From positions 3,211,001 through 3,275,000 of the forward strand of contig NC_061790.1 of NCBI RefSeq assembly GCF_022458985.1: DNA of 64,000 nucleotides, in the 5' to 3' direction. Under the pieces are notes generated by a model. That model did not search any database. It was not told where the DNA came from and saw only the letters and a program-made list of their open reading frames with translations. The position numbers and the translations under genes were made by a program. Positions 3,857 to 49,530 of this stretch are shown in pieces (positions within the stretch are counted from its first letter, which is position 1; every line of letters begins with the position of its first letter). Source of the DNA: Mugil cephalus (taxonomy: Eukaryota > Chordata > Actinopteri > Mugiliformes > Mugilidae).

Positions 3857-5553
3857 ATGGTTGGATTCAGATGGATTCAAATATCTTTATTCCTGATGAT
3901 GATGCTTCAGTTTCCAGGTAAGGATACATAGAGAACACTTTCAATTCCATCACTGCATTAATATCACTAATGTTAAGACACGAGCCTGTCTAAATTTCAC
4001 AATACACCAATATCTACTTCTTACTGCTGGAACATTCTGTGCCTACATGAAAGGAAGTTGGATTATGCAAAAATCATCTGACAGTCCAATGAGAGCCGAC
4101 AAGTAACAACACGGCAATAAACCTGTGTCCCACTAGTTGTTGGTGTATCGTGACCTTTGATGCTCACACTAACTCTGAACATAACAGTCATTTTCATGTT
4201 ACACTTGATTTTTAACATTTTTGTCTTTTTGTCTCAACAGCAGCAACTGGACAATATTCATCCACCACAGTCAGAGTTGGACAAGACGTCACTTTGTCTT
4301 GTGGAAATGTGACAGATGGACAGAACAACTGTGACAGTATTATCTTGTTGTTCAGTCATTCGCCAGACACATCAGTTGTAGAGCTGGTTAGGCTTGGGCA
4401 GATCAAATCAGACAAACTGAGAGTTACAACAAACTGTTCACTGGTTATAAAGAAGGTCACAGATGATGATGCTGGTCTTTACACCTGCAGACAGTTCACA
4501 TCTGGACAACAACAAGGAGCAGACTTTCAGGTTCATCTGTCTGTTATCACCAGTGAGTATTTCCATCATAATGTTTCCAGGTGAAACTGTCTCATTAGAA
4601 CAACATAGTGAAACATGACAATAATTATGATCGCAGTGATGAAGTTCATTTTCCTCTTGTTGTTTTTCTCTCTCAATATCTCCATCTTCTCCAGTGACTG
4701 AACATGAGGACAATGATACAGTCGTCTTGTCCTGTTCTGTGTTCGAACATGATCACTGCAGACATGAAGTAGAGTGGGTGTATGAGGGTAAAGAGGAAAT
4801 ATCAGACACAAAGATATCATTACATTCCTGCTCTGCGAATGTGACTTTTACAACACCTCACCTTAATCAAATGTTTCATGAGTTATTTAAGTGTAAAGTG
4901 ACCAGTGGATACTGTGATAAAGTTCAGCTGTTTACATTCAGCCCTCAGTTTTTCAATGAGGAAACAGGTGAGAAAATGATTTTCTGTTTAAAATCACCTC
5001 AGACTAATAAAAGTTTAAATATCAAACCAGATTATGTCATCTATAATGTAACGGTAACATGGAGTAATGTGTGTTTCCACATCCTGTTATTCTGTATGCT
5101 GTGTTTCTTCAGATGATGATACAACAACAGCCACAAGAATTAAATGCACAAGAGTGATAACGGAATGGACAGACGAAACAACATCTACGTCCAACAATGA
5201 GCCACCAAGTCAAGGTAATGCATCTACAGTCCTTTAAGTGAAGGGAAAGTGTATTTCTTACATTTTTATATTCAGAACAAAAGGCACTTGTGTTTTTCTT
5301 GTTTCCAGATTCTTCTCATTTGTTGAGATCCATCATTGCGTCTGTGGGTTTAGCAGCACTCTTAATATCTGTTGTTACAGTCCATATGTGGATTAAAACT
5401 GAAGGTGAGAACATTCATAGATGAAAGTTTTAGTCAGAAAAAGCTTTTGATGAACCTGGAGTTTGGCTGTTGAAGCTAAAGTGGACTCTCTCGTTTGTCT
5501 TTTCAGGGAACAAGACACAGATTGAAGAAAACACGGAGATGATGCAATGTTGA
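3857..5553 (+). CDS. Gene A: two-domain Ig-superfamily receptor with truncated tail
   Basis: Coding exons: 3857-3917, 4241-4552, 4695-4967, 5113-5214, 5309-5404 and 5507-5553 (stop TGA), 296 residues, all phase 1 up to the last. Residues 1-20 are a leader (MVGFRWIQISLFLMMMLQF). Residues 21-124 are a V-type Ig domain with LSCGN and LYTCRQF cysteines, an extra NNC, and the TTNCSLVIKK motif, where NCS is an N-glycosylation sequon. Residues 125-215 are a second, different Ig domain (VVLSCSV...VEWVYEGKEE...FKCKV). Residues 216-249 are a Thr-rich stalk. Residues about 258-278 are a membrane helix without Lys or Arg. The tail is only about 15 residues and has no tyrosine. Paralogues splice from AACACT|GTGAGT into a final tyrosine exon. 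Here that donor reads AACACGGAGATG, so translation runs into TGA and the old last exon (5618-5734) is bypassed. It is probably a surface receptor without its own signalling motif. Ligand unknown. Confidence 0.8.
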
Positions 5554-7736: not shown

Positions 7737-10700
7737 ATGGTTGAATTCAGATGGATTCAAATATCTTTATTCCTGATCCTGATGCTTCAGTTTACAGGTA
7801 AGGATACATAGAGAACCCATGCAGTTCCATCACTGCATTAACATGACTAATGTTAAATCATTCAGTGTTCTTCCTGTAACTCAGACAGACATGTTTTGGT
7901 TGGAACTTGGTGACTTTAGTTGACTCTTGAAAACCAAAGACGAGACACAAACTTGTGTTGAATACTTGAATATTTCAAATGTTTTAAAATTACATGACTG
8001 TACGGTGAACCGAGAGTGAAAAGCGTTATGCTCTCACACCACACAGGAAATCAAGCTATGATTGACAGCACTCTGATCTAATGGTGCGAGTCCCTGATAG
8101 GCTGACAGTACTGTAGTCCAATGGCATTTGAAGGGGCTCCAGGGAGAGGCTGTCGTAATTCAGGGGGGTAGGTGGCACCCTATGCAAGCCCTTTAGACGC
8201 ACCCCTGCATTCATGACGTTCCTAAACTTAGTCAAAGTGATCGTTTTTATGCAGTTTTTATGTTCTGGTGTTAATAAAAATAATAATAATAATAACATAT
8301 CCATCATTCGCTATTCTTCCATTAACTGCGGTGGTCTGTCTCTTTGTCTCAACAGCCGCACCTGGACAATTTTCATCTGTCACTGTCACAGGTGGACATG
8401 AAGTCACTTTGTCTTGTGGAAATGTGATAGATGGACAGAAGAACTGTGACAGTACTACCTGGATTTTCAGTTCAACAAGAACATCATCATCAGTAGAGCT
8501 GGTTAATCTTGGTCAGATCAGATCTGAACCAGACAGACTGAGAGTTACATCAAACTGTTCTCTGGTTATAAAGAAGGTCACAGATGATGATGCTGGTCTT
8601 TACGCCTGCAGACAGTTTGACAAATCAGGACAACAACAAGGAACAGACTTTCTGGTTGATCTGTCTGTTATTACCAGTGAGTATTTACTATATTACTATA
8701 TATAATAATATTTTGAACTCGTTTTTTGTTGTTGTTGTTTTATTTTATTTTGTTGACATTACTATCAGTTTCTTTCTTCTGAACAGAATCAACTGGACAA
8801 CGTTCATCTCTCACTGTGACTGCTGGACATGACGTCATTTTGCCTTGTGAAAACGTGATAAATGGACAGAAGAACTGTTATGATACTACCTGGCTCTTCT
8901 TTAAGTCAAGAAACACAGCAGTGGTGTTGGTTAGTGATGGGCAGATTAAATCTAAACCAGCCAGACTGAGAGTTACCACAAACTGCTCTCTAGTTATAAA
9001 GAAGGTCACAGTTGACGAGGACGGTGAGTACGCCTGCAGACGGCTTATATCGGGAGGACAAAACCAAGATGTACTATTTGCTCTGTTTGTTATTAACAGT
9101 GAGTATTTACATGATCATTTTTTCAGAGTTTTTGAAATTGAGCTTCTCATGTTCTTTTTTCATAATGTTGTCTCTACATCTACCACTACTACTATTGCCT
9201 GCTGTCTGTCCAGCAGTACAATGTCCAGTTGGTTAGCCATGACTAGCCTGTCATACCTTTTACTTGTGCTGCCAGGTGCTCATGGAGTGCAGTTAGCATC
9301 TTCATGTCAGGGCCTTCATACTTGATATCTTTTCTTGGATGCCTGCTATTGTGATTGTTGCTGGACCTTCTCACAGAGGTTACTGTGTATTATTCAGTAT
9401 TGTTCAGGCTTCAGCCTTGGTGGGTCTGATCTCATATAAATGTGTTGCCATTGACAGTAGACTGCAGATGGTTAAGTGGAGAATATCCTGCTTATTCACC
9501 CAGATTCTAGCTTTCTGGTGTACCTCTAAGGCGGTTCGCCAGGACCGTGAGTGTTTGCCTAGCAGTCTCTCAGGCCACAAGTGTGGAACGCTTATTGTGT
9601 TTCTTGGGTATCCTCTTCTTTTGTCGTACCTTTCTGAAGTTCTGATGGATGGCTAACTTCTTCCTGCATTGCCTTGATCTTGGCCTCCAGTTTCTTTCAC
9701 CATGGAGGACACTGCTTCTTGTCATTGGGGTTCGACTTGTAGCCGAACTTCTCAAGGGTCACTGGTACAGTGGCATACACACATAATGCCTCATTGGTCT
9801 TTTAGTAGACTAACAGAATTCACATAGTGTCTGGTGTTGATCTGGGAAGGGCTTCTTATTGGTGCTTAGTACCCAGTATGGTGGTGACATTATGTAGCAT
9901 TTCAGTCTACAGTACCGATAGCAGTTGCTGTTTGCAGATATTGAAACACTGAGTTACTAGTTGTTTCAATCTAAATCTTGATGTTGGGTTTCAAAAGTTC
10001 CATTGGTCCTACATCGTTCACATATGATCCCACTCACTAGGGTAGCATTCTATCAAATCTTTGTTCTCATCTCTCATCCATAAATGAGGTGCTAATCTTG
10101 TTTAATTTTGCTCAGCATTTTCAGACATGAGGAGGGCAGATAGAAAGTAGTGCTGAGAACTTTGCATTAAGAACTCGAATCCTAGTGTCCTATGATACTA
10201 CACTGACTACACCTTGGGTGGGACTCGAACCCTGCTCTCTTATAGTTTCTCCGCCCAGTGGGTGTATATTTAGATTTTGAAGTTTCCACTGGAAAATTTG
10301 CAGTTTGGATAGTTTGCACCATTGTTGTTACATGAAGTATGATCTCATAGTACAGACTGCTTTATTATGTTTTTTTAGGCACTGATGCAGCAAAACAAAC
10401 AACAACCTCAACAACACCACCACCAACAGCAGCAGCGGCAACAACCACATCAAGAGCAAACAATAATCCTGAAAATCAGCCATCAAGTGAGTGAATCACT
10501 CTCATCTTCTATCTTTTATCTTGGCTCTGGGTGTATGAGATTTTCTCTGGTTCAGTCTTAGTCTTCAAACTTTTTGGTCTTCACAACATCCGAGTCATCA
10601 TCACAAAGCCGGAGACAGTTTAATTATTTAAACTTCCTTTTCCAGCTTGGTCGGTGTGGTGGTACATTTGTGTTCCTGTGGGTATAACAGCCATCTTAGC

Positions 10701-14320: not shown

Positions 14321-17300
14321 ATGGTTGAATTCAGATGGATTCAAATGTCTTTATTCCTGATCCTGATGCTTCAGTTTCCAGGTAAGGACACATAGAGAAC
14401 ACATTCAGTTCCATCACTGCATTAATATCGCTTATTCAGTGTTCTTCCTCCGTTGGTAATAGTCGTCTTTTTCATGTTACACTTTATTTGTCACATTTCG
14501 GTCTCTTTGTCTCAACAGTAGCAACTGGACAACTTTCATCTGTCACTGTCAGAGTTGGACATGACGTCACTTTGTCTTGTGGAAATGTGATTGATGGACA
14601 GTGCTACAGTACTACCTGGCATCATGATGTTAAAAACAAAGTTACATTGATCATTGAGAATGGACAGATCAAATCTAAACCAGACAGACTGAGTTTAAAA
14701 ACAAACTGTTCTCTGGTTATAAAGAAGGTCACAGATGATGATGCTGGTCTTTACACCTGCAGACAGTTCATACCAGGACAACAACAACGAGCAAGCTTTC
14801 AGAGTGATCTGTCAGTTGTTACCAGTGAGTATTTCCGTGATAATGTTTCCAGGTCAAACTGTGTCATTAGAGCAACACACTGAAACATTCTAGTTATCTT
14901 TCTCTCATAGTATATGTTTTTGTTGGTTGGTATAATTACAAAATGAAGTTATATTTCTATCTTTATTTTGCTCATATTTATAATAATTTGTTTTTCCAAA
15001 CAGACAACATTCATCGTCACAAGTTAATTTTCCCTTTAGAGTAAACAAACATATACAGTACATATATATGTCTAAATCATTCAAGTTTAAATATGACTGG
15101 TTTTCTCTCATATTGTTGTAAAGGGAACATGGAGGATGTTCTCACTGTGCTGATGATTTCATGTCATTATTCTATGTTTTAGGCAATGATCCAACAACAA
15201 CAACAACAACAACCACCACCACACCAACAACAACTCCAACAACAACCACCATAACGACAACTCCAAGAACAAAAGCCACCACAACAACAACTCCAACAAC
15301 ACCAACCACCACAACAACGACTACAATGGCAGCAGCAACTGGACAATATTCATCTGTCACTGTCAGAGTTGGACATGACGTCACTTTGTCTTGTGGAAAT
15401 GTGATAGATGGACAGAAGAACTGTGACAGTACTAGCTGGTTGTACGGTTCGACAAGAACATCAACAGTTGAGCTGGTTGAACTTGGACAGATCAGATCTA
15501 AACCAGACAGACTGAGAGTTACAACAAACTGTTCTCTGGTTATAAAGAAGGTCACAGATGATGATGCTGGTCGTTACACCTGCAGACAGTTCATATCAGG
15601 ACGACAACAAGGAGCAGACTTTCTGATTGATCTGTCTGTTACTACCAGTGAGTATTTCCATCATAATGTTTCCAGGTCAAACTGTGTCATTAGAGCAACA
15701 CACTAAAATATTCTAGTTATCTTTCTCTCACAGTATATGTTTTTGTTGGTTGGTATAATTACAAAATGAAGTTATATTTCTATCTGTATTTTGCTCATAT
15801 TTATAATAATTTGTTTTTCCAAAGAGACAACATTCATCATCACAAGTTAATTTTCCCTTTAGAGTAAACAAACATATACAGTACATATATATGTCTAAAT
15901 CATTCAAGTTTAAATATGACTGGTTTTCTCTCATATTGTTGTAAAGGGAACATGGAGGATGTTCTCACTGTGCTGATGGTTTCATGTCATTATTCTATGT
16001 TTTAGGCAATGATCCAACAACAACAACAACAACAACCACCACCACAACAACAACAACAACAACAACTCCAACAACAACCACCATAACGACAACTCCAAGA
16101 ACAAAAGCCACCACAACAACAACTCCAACAACACCAACCACCACAACAACGACTACAATGGCAGCAGCAACTGGACAATATTCATCTGTCACTGTCAGAG
16201 TTGGACATGACGTCACTTTGTCTGGTGGAAATGTGATAGATGGACAGAAGAACTGTGACAGTTCTAGCTGGTTGTACAGTTCGACAAGAACATCAACAGT
16301 TGAGCTGGTTGAACTTGGACAGATCAGATCTAAACCAGACAGACTGAGAGTTACAACAAACTGTTCTCTGGTTATAAAGAAGGTCACAGATGATGATGCT
16401 GGTCGTTACACCTACAGAGAGTTCATATCAGGACGACAACAAGGAGCAGACTTTCTGATTGATCTGTTTGTTACTACCAGTGAGTATTTCCATCATAATG
16501 TTTCCAGGTCAAACTGTCTTATTCGAGATATATTGAATATACTGTCATAATGACACAGAACAGAAAACATATATAGTTTTGTCATGTGTCTAACAACAGC
16601 AGAACCAACTATTAAACCACCAACAACAAGAGAACAACTGAAGTCAGTGACAAGGGGCACATCTAAATCCGACAATAATCCTCTAAATCATCATGGTAGT
16701 GACCAAACTCATCTCATCTGTTAAATGGGTGGAGGTTTTCTCTAATTCAGTCTGATCATCACAGTTAAAACTTCTCTCTCCAGGTTGGACGTTGTTGTTG
16801 TCCGTTATTGTCTCCGTGTGTTCAGCAGCACTCCTAGTAACGGGTGTTGTGACCATCGTATGCAATAAAATGAAAGGTGAGAACATTCTCTCACCTTTTG
16901 CAGCTCCTCTTTTCTTGACCTGTTGATGATCAGAAAGCAGACTAACTAACCTCAACTGTTTTTATCTTTTCAGAAAACAAAACCCCGATGGAAGACAACA
17001 CTGTGAGTTTTAACACAAAAAAATTCTATCAGTATCAGTAATGGTCTTACATAACAAAATAAAATGGTTAAGTACAAATCCCGAGTTTAGACTGAGCTCT
17101 ACTATGTCAGCTGAGTCCTTATGAAACACAACTTCTCCAGAGAATGAGAAGGAGGTGCGATGTTAGCAGTAAAATCATGATTCCTGTCAGGTTGTGCTGT
17201 TTTAAGTTTGTGTATATTAAATGTAAGTATCTGTGTTTTATTCGAGGTCCCTAACGATAACCTTGACGGATATGCTATGATCTACAACTTATTGGAAGCT

Positions 17301-17366
17301 CCCACATCCTTTGCTGAATTTCCCACTGAGTCAACAAATCTCTCTACTTTTATGAATGTTGACTGA
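14321..17366 (+). CDS. Gene C: receptor with three V-type Ig domains and internal mucin-like stalks
   Basis: Coding exons: 14321-14381, 14519-14824, 15183-15647, 16006-16479, 16600-16695, 16784-16876, 16974-17002 and 17247-17366 (stop TGA), 547 residues, in frame. Residues 1-20 are the leader and 21-122 are V1. Residues 123-277 and 278-435 are each one exon coding a Thr/Pro stalk of about 50 residues fused directly to a V domain. Residues 436-467 are a stalk, and the membrane helix lies about 472-493. V2 has both canonical cysteines (LSCGN, YTCRQF). V3 has LSGGN and YTYREF, so both are lost, while KNCDSSSW and TTNCSL remain. The stalk-V exons belong to an 823/832-bp tandem duplication. The tail has GYAMIYNLLE, which is not a canonical ITIM (Met at -2). 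Probably a long, O-glycosylated surface receptor; the signalling type cannot be told. Only the frame, the splice sites and the V signature are directly seen. Confidence 0.8.
14825..16479 (+). repeat. 823-bp tandem duplication inside gene C
   Basis: Unit 1 is 14825-15647 and unit 2 is 15648-16479. Each holds an intron and a complete stalk-V exon. Landmarks in the two copies are 823 bp apart. Unit 2 is longer by three ACA-type codons in the Thr tract. Intron sequence is almost identical between copies, so the event is recent. Confidence 0.9.
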
Positions 17367-19545: not shown

Positions 19546-21089
19546 TTGGTTGAATTCAGATGGATTCAAATGTCTTTATTTCTGATCCTGATGCTTCAGT
19601 TTCCAGGTAAGGATACATGTACATACACACTAATGGACTCTTTCTACCTTTGCAGCACTTTGACGTTACTGTTGACTCTAGTACTGCACTAGTGATGATT
19701 TCTTTTTTTTTTCTTTCTTTGGTTCTATAATGACCCTGATGTTAGTTGAACCTTTTAGAGAAATAACAGGATTACTAAAAAAATGATCATCTTCCTGAAC
19801 ACATTCAGTTCCATCACTGCATTAATATTACATCACTAATGTTACTTCATTCAGTGTTCTTCCTTTACCACAGACAGACATTTTTTGGTTGGAACTTGAT
19901 GACTTTGGTTGACTTTTGGAAACCAAAGATGAGACATGTGTTGAATCTAAAATGATCTCCACACTAACTATCATAGACTAGAAGAGAGGTAGATGCCAAG
20001 ACAGCTCCTTTAAAGTGAAGGCAAAGCACTTAGAGCTCCCCCTGGTGTATATTTCCATCAGTGTAACAGTACTACCTGGATATACAGTTCCACAAGAACG
20101 TCATCATCAGTAGTGCTGGTTAATCTTGGACAGATCAGATCTAAACAAGACTGACTGAGAGTTACAACACACTGTTCTCTGGTTATAAAGAAGGTCACAG
20201 ATGATGATGCTGGTAATTACACCTGCAGAAAATTCATATCAGGACGACAACGAGGAGTAGACTTTCTGAGTGATCTGTCTGTTATTACCAGTGAACGTTC
20301 CTGTGCAGTGATGATGTTTTTCTGTTAAAGTGTACAACTAAATATCAGCCTAGTTCTACCAGCAGTTGTTGCAAAGTTAACGTGGAGGATGTTCACACCA
20401 TACAGACTGTTTAATTTCATTATGTTATTTTAGAGGAAATGATGCAAAAACAAAATCAGCTAGTGCGACTATTACCACAAAATCACCAACAACAGCAATC
20501 AAACCAGCAACATCAGTCAGACTAAAGACAACAGAAGATTGACACGGTAGGGACTCCACCATCCTTTAAATTCTAAAATCTGAACTGTACATAGCTATGA
20601 AATAAATATCAAAAAACAAAGATGTACAACGAAGTGACACAGCTCATTGAGATTCAGATTATCTGATTATCAAATTACTTATGAAGCCAAAATATTTTTT
20701 CTTGTTTCCAGATTCTTCTCATTTGTTGAAATCTGTCGGTGTGTCTGTGGGTTTAGCAGCTCTTTTAATATCTGCTGTTGCAGTCAACATGTGGATTAAA
20801 ACTAAAGGTGAACATTCACAGATGAAAGTTTTAGTCAGAAAAAGCTTTTGATGAACCTGGAGTTTGGCTGTTGAAACTAAAGTGGACACAGATGGAAGAA
20901 AACACTGTGAGTTTAAACTCTGAACATTCAAACATTTGTACAGGTCCAACTTGACAAAGTAAAACCAGTGTTTGTGATGTTTGTTGGTGGTATTGTTTTC
21001 CACAGGTGCAGAATGATGGAGGTGAAGGTGAAGGTTCAGTGACCTATGAAAACTCTGGAGACCCTTCTGCTTCAGTCAGACTCCACTGA
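19546..21089 (+). pseudogene. Pseudogene D: single-V receptor relic
   Basis: Recognisable parts are the leader 19546-19606, the 3' half of a V exon (about 20057-20290), a stalk (from about 20436), a membrane exon 20712-20807, a remnant of the small cytoplasmic exon (about 20886-20909) and the tail exon 21006-21089. The defects are independent. The start codon is TTG where paralogues have ATG. The first half of the V exon (A to C strands) is missing. An in-frame TGA replaces AGA in the SKPDRLRV segment (AAACAAGACTGACTG). The stalk frame also reaches a stop. A deletion removes the acceptor of the small exon. The tail exon still reads GSVTYENSGDPSASV. It cannot encode the receptor. Confidence 0.85.
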
Positions 21090-23843: not shown

Positions 23844-29795
<5,952 letters not shown>

Positions 29796-34900: not shown

Positions 34901-35079
34901 CAGTCAATATATTCTATTCTATTCTATTCTATTCTATTCTATTCTATTCTATTCTATTCCATTCTATTCTAATATCAGTGCAGTGATGGAACTGAAAGTG
35001 TTCTCTATGTATCCTTACCTGGAAACTGAAGCATCAGGATCACGAATAAAGACATTTGAATCCATCTGAACTCAACCAT
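31942..35079 (-). CDS. Gene E: single-V receptor with long Thr stalk and YENY tail
   Basis: Minus-strand coding exons in order of translation: 35079-35019, 33284-32973, 32731-32507, 32351-32256, 32153-32125 and 32025-31942 (stop TGA), 268 residues, in frame. Residues 1-20 are the leader (MVEFRWIQMSLFVILMLQF). Residues 21-124 are a V domain (LSCGNRIDGQKNC, TTTCSLVIKK, QYLCSSL); the usual TTNCS sequon is TTTCS here. Residues 125-199 are a mucin-like stalk that is mostly Thr and Pro. The membrane helix lies about 208-228 (SIIVSVGLAALLISVVTVNM), without a basic residue. The tail GSVIYENYGDPSASVRLH has Tyr about 255 in a YxN context, the Grb2-SH2 consensus, and is not an ITIM. The 1.7-kb first intron contains a non-LTR 3' end and an ATTCT satellite. 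A possible polyadenylation signal on this strand lies at 31653-31658. Likely a surface receptor or mucin-like co-receptor. Confidence 0.82.
34690..34971 (+). repeat. Non-LTR 3' end with ATTCT satellite in gene E intron
   Basis: Plus-strand text includes KYQSTVESIMVW, NYPLPSLEDIATSLGLS-like frames, and ends in TGTACAATGACAATA followed by (ATTCT)n at 34911-34971. Fish LINE 3' ends commonly finish this way. The class call is by eye. Confidence 0.5.
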
Positions 35080-47220: not shown

Positions 47221-49530
47221 AGGACCAGGATTGTGAAACACTGGGTTGAATCATACCATAAATTATAACAATAAATGTAAAATTCATATTGATATGTTGG
47301 AAACAACTTCACAACAAAGGTGAAATAAAACAAAACAAAACAAAACAAAACAAGAATATATATGTTGCTTTATATAAACAGTCAAAACACACATGGTCCA
47401 ATTGACCCTGGAGGACAAAAGGTGTGAAGACAACACGAAGGCAGAGGAAAGTTTGTGTTGTGGTCTACAACACACACTGGAAATTCATCATCAATAAATG
47501 CTTCATTTTCTAGGAGTCATATTAACGTGAGCAGTGGCAAAGAAGAATCAGTTACAGATAACATTAAGATTTTAAAGCTCAGTAAAGTCAAACATTCAAG
47601 ATTAAAAATATTAAAGACAGTAAATGTTCTACATAAATACTATCAGAAATATTTCTTGTTGGTTGAAGCTGAGATCATGTGATTTAGCTGAAGAATCTAA
47701 ATGTGTTGTCATGTTGTTGATCCACAGTATTAAAATGATCTTGTGCTTGTGTTGTTTTCTGCTCATGTTAAATGTGATGAGATGATGTTTAACAGCAGTG
47801 GACTCGTCTCTGTGGTGAGTTGATGTTGAAGTTGTTGATCAGTGGAGTCTGACTGAAGCAGAAGGGTCTCCAGAGTTTTCATAGATCACTGAACCTTCAC
47901 CTTCACCTCCATCATTCTGCACCTGTGGAAAACAACACCACAAACAAACATCACAAACACTGGTTTGACTCTGTCAAGTTGGACCTGTACAAATGTTTGA
48001 ATGTTCAGAGTTTAAACTCACAGTGTTTTCTTCCATCTGTGTCTTGTTCCCTGAAAAGACAAATGAGAGAGTCCACTTTAGCTTCAACAGCCAAATTCCA
48101 GGTTCATCAAAAGCTTTTTCTGACTAAAACTTTCATATGTGAATGTTCTCACCTTTAGTTTTAATCCACATGTTGACTGTAACAACAGATATCAAGAGTG
48201 CTGCTAAACCCACAGACACGATGATGGATCTCAACAAATGAGAAGAATCTGGAAACAACAATCGTCAAGAACTAATATTAATATAATCTAACTTTAAGAC
48301 CTTAATTTAAACTTTAAAATGTGACAGAGATCCAGACTCTACGTTGTTGATCTGATGGATTGTTGTTGATTGTCTGTTCTGATGAGGTTAGGTTTACTGA
48401 TGTCATTTTTTCACTTGTTGGTTTAATTGTTGTTGATTTTGTTTTCTTCTTTCTCTTCTTTCTCTTTACGTGATTAAATAAAACACCAACATATAACAAT
48501 CTAAAACAGACTCTATGTTACCTTTACTTTATAGATGATAGAAACTGGTTTGATTCTCACCTGAGGACTGAGGGCTGAAGGTAAACAGCTGAACTTTCTT
48601 AGTGTAAACATCTGTCACTTTACACTTCAATAACTCATAAATCCTCTGATTAAGGTGAGATGATGTAAATGTCACAGTGGCAGAGCAGGAAGGTGGTGAT
48701 ATCTCCATGTCTGATATTTCCTCTTTACCCTCATACAGCCACTCCACTGTGTGAATACATGGATTATAATCCAACACAGAATAGCAGAACAAGACGACCT
48801 CATCATTGTCCTCATGTTCAGTCACTGGAGAAGATGGAGATATTGAGAGAGAAAGACAACAAGAGGAAAATCAACTTCATCACTGTGATCATAATTATTG
48901 TCATGTTTCACTATGTTGTTCTAATGAGACAGTTTGACCTGGAAACATTATGATGGAAATACTCACTGGTAATAACAGACAGATAAACCTGAAAGTCTGC
49001 TCCTTGTTGTCGTCCTGATATGATCTGTCTGCAGGTGTAAAGACCAACATCATCATTTGTGACCTTCTTTATAACCAGAGAACAGTTTGTTGTAACTCTC
49101 AGTCTGTCTGGTTTAGATCTGATCTGTCCATGTTCAAACTGCTCTACTGTTGCTTACTCTACCATTGAAGTACCAGGTGGTACTGTCACAGTTCTTCTGT
49201 CCATCGATCACATTTCCACAAGACAAAGTGACGTCATGTCCAACTCTGACAGTGACATATGAACGTTGTCCAGTTGTTGCTGTTGAGACAAAGAGACAGA
49301 AATGTTAAAAATAAAGAGTAAAAAAAAGATGACTGTTACAATTTTAAAATGGAACAAAGCGTCTCCACTTTCTTCCATTGGTCAAACTGACGCTAGTATC
49401 CAGGAATATTATCAGTTTCACCATCTGTTGAGTTTGCAGCCAGAGTCTGATCAGTTCTGTCTGAGAGTGTTGACACATTAATGATGACCCACCACTTCCT
49501 CTAGAATTAATACTCTACCTCCAACATTTA

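Follow-up and report, generated by a model that had tools for sequence, protein, structure and literature searches.

The third V domain (V3) of gene C in Mugil cephalus has lost both of the cysteines that form the canonical disulfide of the immunoglobulin (Ig) fold, in an exon that is still open (16006-16479). Gene C lies in a 64,000-nucleotide stretch of contig NC_061790.1, here called the window (C21:3211001-3275000 in the searched genome of 635 Mb and 24 contigs), and is a member of a tandem family of teleost-type V-set receptors. V3 is probably a redundant membrane-proximal duplicate under relaxed fold constraint, in which both cysteines may be gone because an orphan thiol was removed. V domains without the canonical bond are already known, and among the members of the family examined here from the assembled sequence no other has lost both cysteines.

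V3 and the second V domain (V2) are encoded by twin exons that differ by seven substitutions and one 9-nucleotide insertion. The V3 exon is 474 nucleotides long and in phase 1 at both ends, with the acceptor ...tctatgttttag and the donor gtgagtat. The acceptor (12 nucleotides) and donor (8 nucleotides) of the V2 exon are identical to these. The original prediction had pointed to the motifs LSGGN and YTYREF as the sites of the two losses, and its coordinates prove exact, with GGT and TAC in V3 at the positions of TGT and TGC in V2. It had also claimed that a second cysteine pair is kept in V3, and this pair is present at codons 33 and 69 (Table 1; codons of the 321-nucleotide V part are numbered from 16158 in V3). 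All seven substitutions change an amino acid, and six of them are in the V part. Besides the two cysteines these are a T to S change on the N-terminal side of the core Trp, two residues away, a G/S difference three residues after it, Q to E within YTYREF, and S to F near the end, while the seventh is a P/T difference in the Thr-rich linker. V2 is the best DNA match for V3 other than V3 itself, with 98% identity.

Both cysteine losses are on the V3 side, because all 16 other close copies compared carry TGT at strand B and TGC at strand F. The T to S, Q to E, and S to F changes are also placed on V3, as V2's base is found in 15, 14, and 15 of the 16 copies, respectively; at the S to F site one copy has V3's base. 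The G to S difference is better placed on V2, since 12 of the 16 copies carry V3's base. The V3 branch is about ten times as long as the V2 branch (0.0179 versus 0.0018).

The canonical cysteines are present in nearly all members of the family. The genome search gave at least 50 V matches, and the retrieved DNA together with the window provided 50 V stretches for reading. Six were dropped (stops, frame breaks, or truncation), leaving 44 open V domains, one of which (window 8789-9091) was kept after trimming a stop upstream of its acceptor. The strand-B cysteine is found in 42 of the 44, the exceptions being V3 and L026, and the strand-F cysteine in 43, the exception being V3. Each of the two extra cysteines is found in 44 of 44, and they are kept more strictly than the canonical pair. 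V3 is the only domain of the 44 in which both canonical cysteines are lost. L026 (501-806, reverse strand; C21:1347262-1347567) is an open V exon with His in place of the strand-B cysteine and with the strand-F cysteine kept, and its gene has a stop-free match to a second domain downstream of the V. Gene conversion from a Cys-less donor was considered and rejected, since Gly at the strand-B site and a residue other than Cys at the strand-F site are each confined to V3 among the 44 domains, and the best DNA match is V2.

The divergence of V2 and V3 looks like the outcome of no net purifying selection. Between the two copies of the intron that was duplicated along with the exon, 7 of 321 sites are different (2.2%). 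In the exon there are changes at 7 of 333.5 nonsynonymous sites (2.1%) and at 0 of 131.5 synonymous sites; the probability of no synonymous change among seven substitutions is 0.098. The original prediction had proposed a comparison of nonsynonymous and synonymous divergence (dN/dS) between the copies. It was run, and its result of seven to zero is not diagnostic, since pairs within the family mostly have dN above dS. For this comparison 18 close V exons on C21 were used (the window and loci L009-L017), making 153 pairs. Among the 30 closest pairs printed, dN/dS is above 1 in 27 and 0.77 in one, and two pairs, one of them V2/V3, have no synonymous change; the median across those of the 153 pairs with dS above zero is 1.57. 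An exon in which every change is nonsynonymous is therefore normal in this family, and the rate alone cannot separate relaxation from diversification. As a test of relaxation dN/dS was set aside. Exon dN exceeds the divergence of flanking sequence in the four deeper of the eight pairs compared; the remaining four show no clear excess. The prevalence of dN above dS in the close C21 V exons is a hint of diversifying selection on the receptor cluster.

The positions of the changes provide the main argument for relaxed constraint, because they are in the core and not where the family diversifies. The five V3 changes have a mean conservation rank of 26.2 of 107, whereas a pool of 1,537 differences in other close pairs has a mean of 76.4. 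Five draws from this pool are as conserved as V3's in 0.00007 of trials, a figure that is partly circular in that the ranks were derived from this very family after excluding just the two sequences being compared, and the pooled pairs share sequences. A more careful test, in which the control pairs and the cut at rank 45 were nevertheless chosen after seeing the table, finds five of five V3 changes in the 45 most conserved ranks versus 3 of 24 differences in three non-overlapping control pairs (p 0.0005, Fisher). When the sixth V2/V3 difference is counted it is five of six (p 0.002). The relaxed constraint offered in the original prediction is thus supported by change at about the intron rate, by the conserved positions of V3's changes, and by the longer V3 branch.

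The loss of both partners of one disulfide suggests that something in addition to chance may have been involved. Five random substitutions in the V part were considered, the number placed on the V3 side. Both canonical cysteines are lost in 0.00097 of the open outcomes and either pair in 0.0022, and the loss of both given the loss of at least one is 0.0137. These odds overstate the surprise, because the pattern was picked by eye, after the fact, in a family of about 50 exons, but they are still suggestive with that number of exons. The double loss is unlikely to be pure chance, and therefore removal of an orphan thiol may have helped. The original prediction had reasoned that losing one cysteine leaves a reactive thiol. 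The odds agree with this argument, whereas L026, 1 of the 43 other open V domains, has lost only the strand-B cysteine and keeps a lone strand-F cysteine, showing that a lone cysteine is not forbidden.

These results can be joined in a sequence of events. The fused linker-V exon was duplicated together with the preceding intron, presumably by unequal exchange. V3, adjoining the membrane, would then be redundant with V2, and its fold constraint was probably relaxed, so that changes accumulated near the intron rate and also at core positions, including both canonical cysteines. After one cysteine was gone the second may have been lost through drift. Somewhat more probably, in view of the odds, it would have gone because a thiol without a partner does harm in a secreted domain. 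If translated, V3 would be a full-length but weakened V module, held only by a putative extra disulfide that links the BC loop to the beginning of strand E. It would be at most a spacer, and V1 and V2 would bind ligand.

Several observations weigh against V3 as a relaxed duplicate. Its frame is still open and its splice signals are unchanged, and both extra cysteines are retained. The five changes on V3 versus one on V2 are not significant alone (p 0.22). Loss of both cysteine partners by pure chance is unlikely. The six dropped V stretches still have Cys at every canonical site that is present, and therefore decay does not usually remove the canonical cysteines first. Also, drift should strike randomly, yet a random set of five positions reaches the conservation of V3's changes in only 0.019 of trials; this figure is low largely because two of the five changes are the cysteines. 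Drift alone is an imperfect account of V3, and the cysteines may have been under some selection.

The domain profile shows a weakened match to the V-set family. V3 scores 17.5 bits with the Pfam V-set model (PF07686), below its curated cut-off of 26 bits, while V1 (41.1 bits) and V2 (35.9 bits) pass. With Gly and Tyr at the two sites V3 lacks the canonical B-F cysteine pair of PF07686, and its predicted structure has the V-type beta sandwich. It is tied to the V-set family because it shares exon descent with V2 (98% DNA identity). In the AlphaFold model of V3, strand B is at residues 19-21, strand C at 36-42, and a further strand at 71-73, the strand names being the assignment of this analysis. 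The mean predicted local distance difference test (pLDDT) score is 79.9 for V3 and 74.9 for V2, from shallow alignments of 9 and 8 rows, and over five models it ranges from 76.7 to 79.9 for V3 and from 35.6 to 74.9 for V2. AlphaFold was rejected as a test of stability, as it does not separate the two domains. A sequence search of solved structures gave weak matches, with a best expectation value (E) of 1.4e-05 for V2 (Titin) and 0.15 for V3.

It is unlikely that V3 is dead, with neutral changes throughout and an exon that is left out of mature transcripts. Because the exon is in phase 1 at both ends the frame would survive skipping, and these symmetric phases and the change near the intron rate agree with this explanation. 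However, its acceptor and donor are the same as those of V2, and both cysteines were struck with a probability of 0.001 under exactly this neutral model. In another explanation V3 would be a working, CD2-like V fold held by the extra disulfide, in which loss of the canonical bond was favored for flexibility, redox insensitivity, or a new surface. Selection of this kind for a disulfide-free Ig fold, the second possibility raised in the original prediction, is quite unlikely and receives no direct support, there being no synonymous change to scale dN and no separation of V2 and V3 by structure prediction. The change is not in excess of the intron rate, and it avoids the variable positions where the family diversifies. 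The AlphaFold model of V3 is no evidence for stability, because V2 with its cysteines gives a similar model. A disulfide-free Ig core is expected to use small hydrophobic replacements, unlike the Gly inside strand B and the Tyr of strand F.

An artefact of assembly or sequencing, in which one or both substitutions or the V3 copy itself is an error or a merger of two alleles, is very unlikely. Near-identical tandem repeats are error-prone, a single assembly is the source, and all seven exon differences change the protein, as errors often would. However, V3 is a distinct sequence, because 7 of 321 sites are different between the intron copies, and its 3' flank departs from that of V2 from 16518 on. 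In addition its frame is unbroken and there is no N in the window.

The contrast between V2 and V3 may be useful for understanding Ig disulfides. The two are a natural near-isogenic pair, with six residue differences in the V part, that differ in the canonical disulfide. They could show whether an extra disulfide makes the canonical Ig bond dispensable and whether loss of the second cysteine follows that of the first. It is conceivable, if rather doubtful, that V3 is an early disulfide-free V domain, in which the canonical bond was traded shortly after duplication for a putative, already present disulfide from the BC loop to the start of strand E, and the orphan thiol was selected out. If so, the invariant extra pair (44 of 44) would be a pre-adaptation that made the canonical bond dispensable. 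Should V3 simply be decaying, it would be one of the ordinary events by which receptor exons are born and die.

Comparison with known V domains shows partial likenesses. Some of the literature searches turned up no pertinent paper, judging by titles and the opening lines of abstracts, which is not to say that such a loss is unpublished. The disulfide-free state of CD2 is old and fixed, whereas V3's losses came after a duplication whose introns have diverged by about 2%, and V3 still has its second cysteine pair. One paper gives CD2 as an exception to the B-F disulfide of V domains (PMC12051499), and V3 is similar in being a V-type sandwich with neither canonical cysteine, the mark of CD2/SLAM-type domains. 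No CD2 chain is among the eight matches of V3 at E up to 1 in the solved-structure search, while V2 had CD2 rows from E 0.029. In the antibody ABPC48 the missing residue is the strand-F cysteine, changed to Tyr. ABPC48 is described as a natural levan-binding antibody with a heavy-chain variable domain (VH) missing one conserved cysteine, and a disulfide-free single-chain variable fragment (scFv) is described too (PMC5734687). ABPC48 shows that a V domain in nature can do without the canonical bond. It differs in that one cysteine is lost, in an antibody, while V3 has lost both in the germ line.

The teleost NITR and NILT families also form tandem clusters of V-type receptors, and NILTs have extra cysteines. 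For NITRs, single losses of a conserved cysteine are reported in the I domains of NITR22 and NITR23, and the V and/or I domain ends in a J or J-like motif, FGXGTXLXV (PMC2442602). Inspection by eye showed no J-like FGXG motif where the 44 V domains end, nor at the ends of the window's four second domains. The extra cysteines of NILTs are spaced CX3C, CX6C, or CX7C (PMC3022915). Those of V2 and V3 (33 and 69) have 35 residues between them, which is not a NILT spacing.

Gene C is modeled with eight exons, and the joined frame encodes 547 residues. The order is signal peptide, V1, Thr-rich linker and V2, Thr-rich linker and V3, stalk, transmembrane segment, and tail (Table 1). All seven introns have a GT donor and an AG acceptor. 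A linker and V in a single exon (more than 30 Thr/Ser/Pro-rich residues in frame into the V) is found only for V2 and V3 among the 50 V stretches. Exon 6 has 45-52% identity over 29 residues to four other such stretches in the window. No match was found in gene C to the second Ig domain that follows the V at 4676, 43484, 48825-48532 (reverse strand), and 58524. The call of exon 8 is tentative because the genome search found no second copy of the tail (17247-17363), which may be either private to gene C or a wrong exon call.

Table 1. Exons of gene C and features of the V3 exon (positions in the window)
Feature	Position	Strand	Basis or remark
Exon 1, start codon and signal peptide	14321-14381	+	Open frame, GT donor
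Exon 2, V1, all four cysteines present	14519-14824	+	Gene model; Pfam V-set 41.1 bits
Exon 3, V2 joined to a Thr-rich linker, no cysteine lost	15183-15647	+	Gene model; Pfam V-set 35.9 bits
Exon 4, Thr-rich linker fused to V3	16006-16479	+	Open, canonical splice sites, phase 1 to 1; V-set 17.5 bits
9-nucleotide in-frame insertion in V3 linker relative to V2	16044-16052	+	Pairwise alignment; exact place in repeat arbitrary
Strand-B cysteine codon (23)	16224-16226	+	GGT (Gly) in V3; TGT at 15392-15394 in V2
First extra cysteine (residue 33), kept in V3	16254-16256	+	Five residues N-terminal to Trp38, between strands B and C
Second extra cysteine (residue 69), kept in V3	16362-16364	+	Just before strand E
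Strand-F cysteine codon (86)	16413-16415	+	TAC (Tyr) in V3; TGC at 15581-15583 in V2
Exon 5, stalk	16600-16695	+	Gene model
Exon 6, transmembrane segment	16784-16876	+	Gene model
Exon 7, cytoplasmic	16974-17002	+	Gene model
Exon 8 (tentative), cytoplasmic tail and stop TGA (17364-17366)	17247-17366	+	Sequence; model ends two bases into stop

The window contains other parts of the receptor cluster. The signal-peptide exon type is found in 13 places, including exon 1 of gene C, and as one 7-residue fragment. The forward-strand copies are at 3857, 7737, 14321, 19546, 37431, 38773, 41253, 54152, and 56320, and the reverse-strand copies are at 35079, 36370, 37939, and 53006. For six of them (37431, 38773, 54152, 36370, 37939, and 53006) the next 3 kb downstream on the same strand contain no V stretch, and these six are either remnants or parts of genes with other domains. 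Two V copies are broken. The one at 20062-20289 is truncated, with an in-frame TGA and the donor gtgaac, and the one at 48968-49280 is split by a frame break. Stretches of the allantoicase type (Pfam PF03561) are found within the cluster at 28476-28829 (45.9 bits) and 29331-29795 (39.8 bits).
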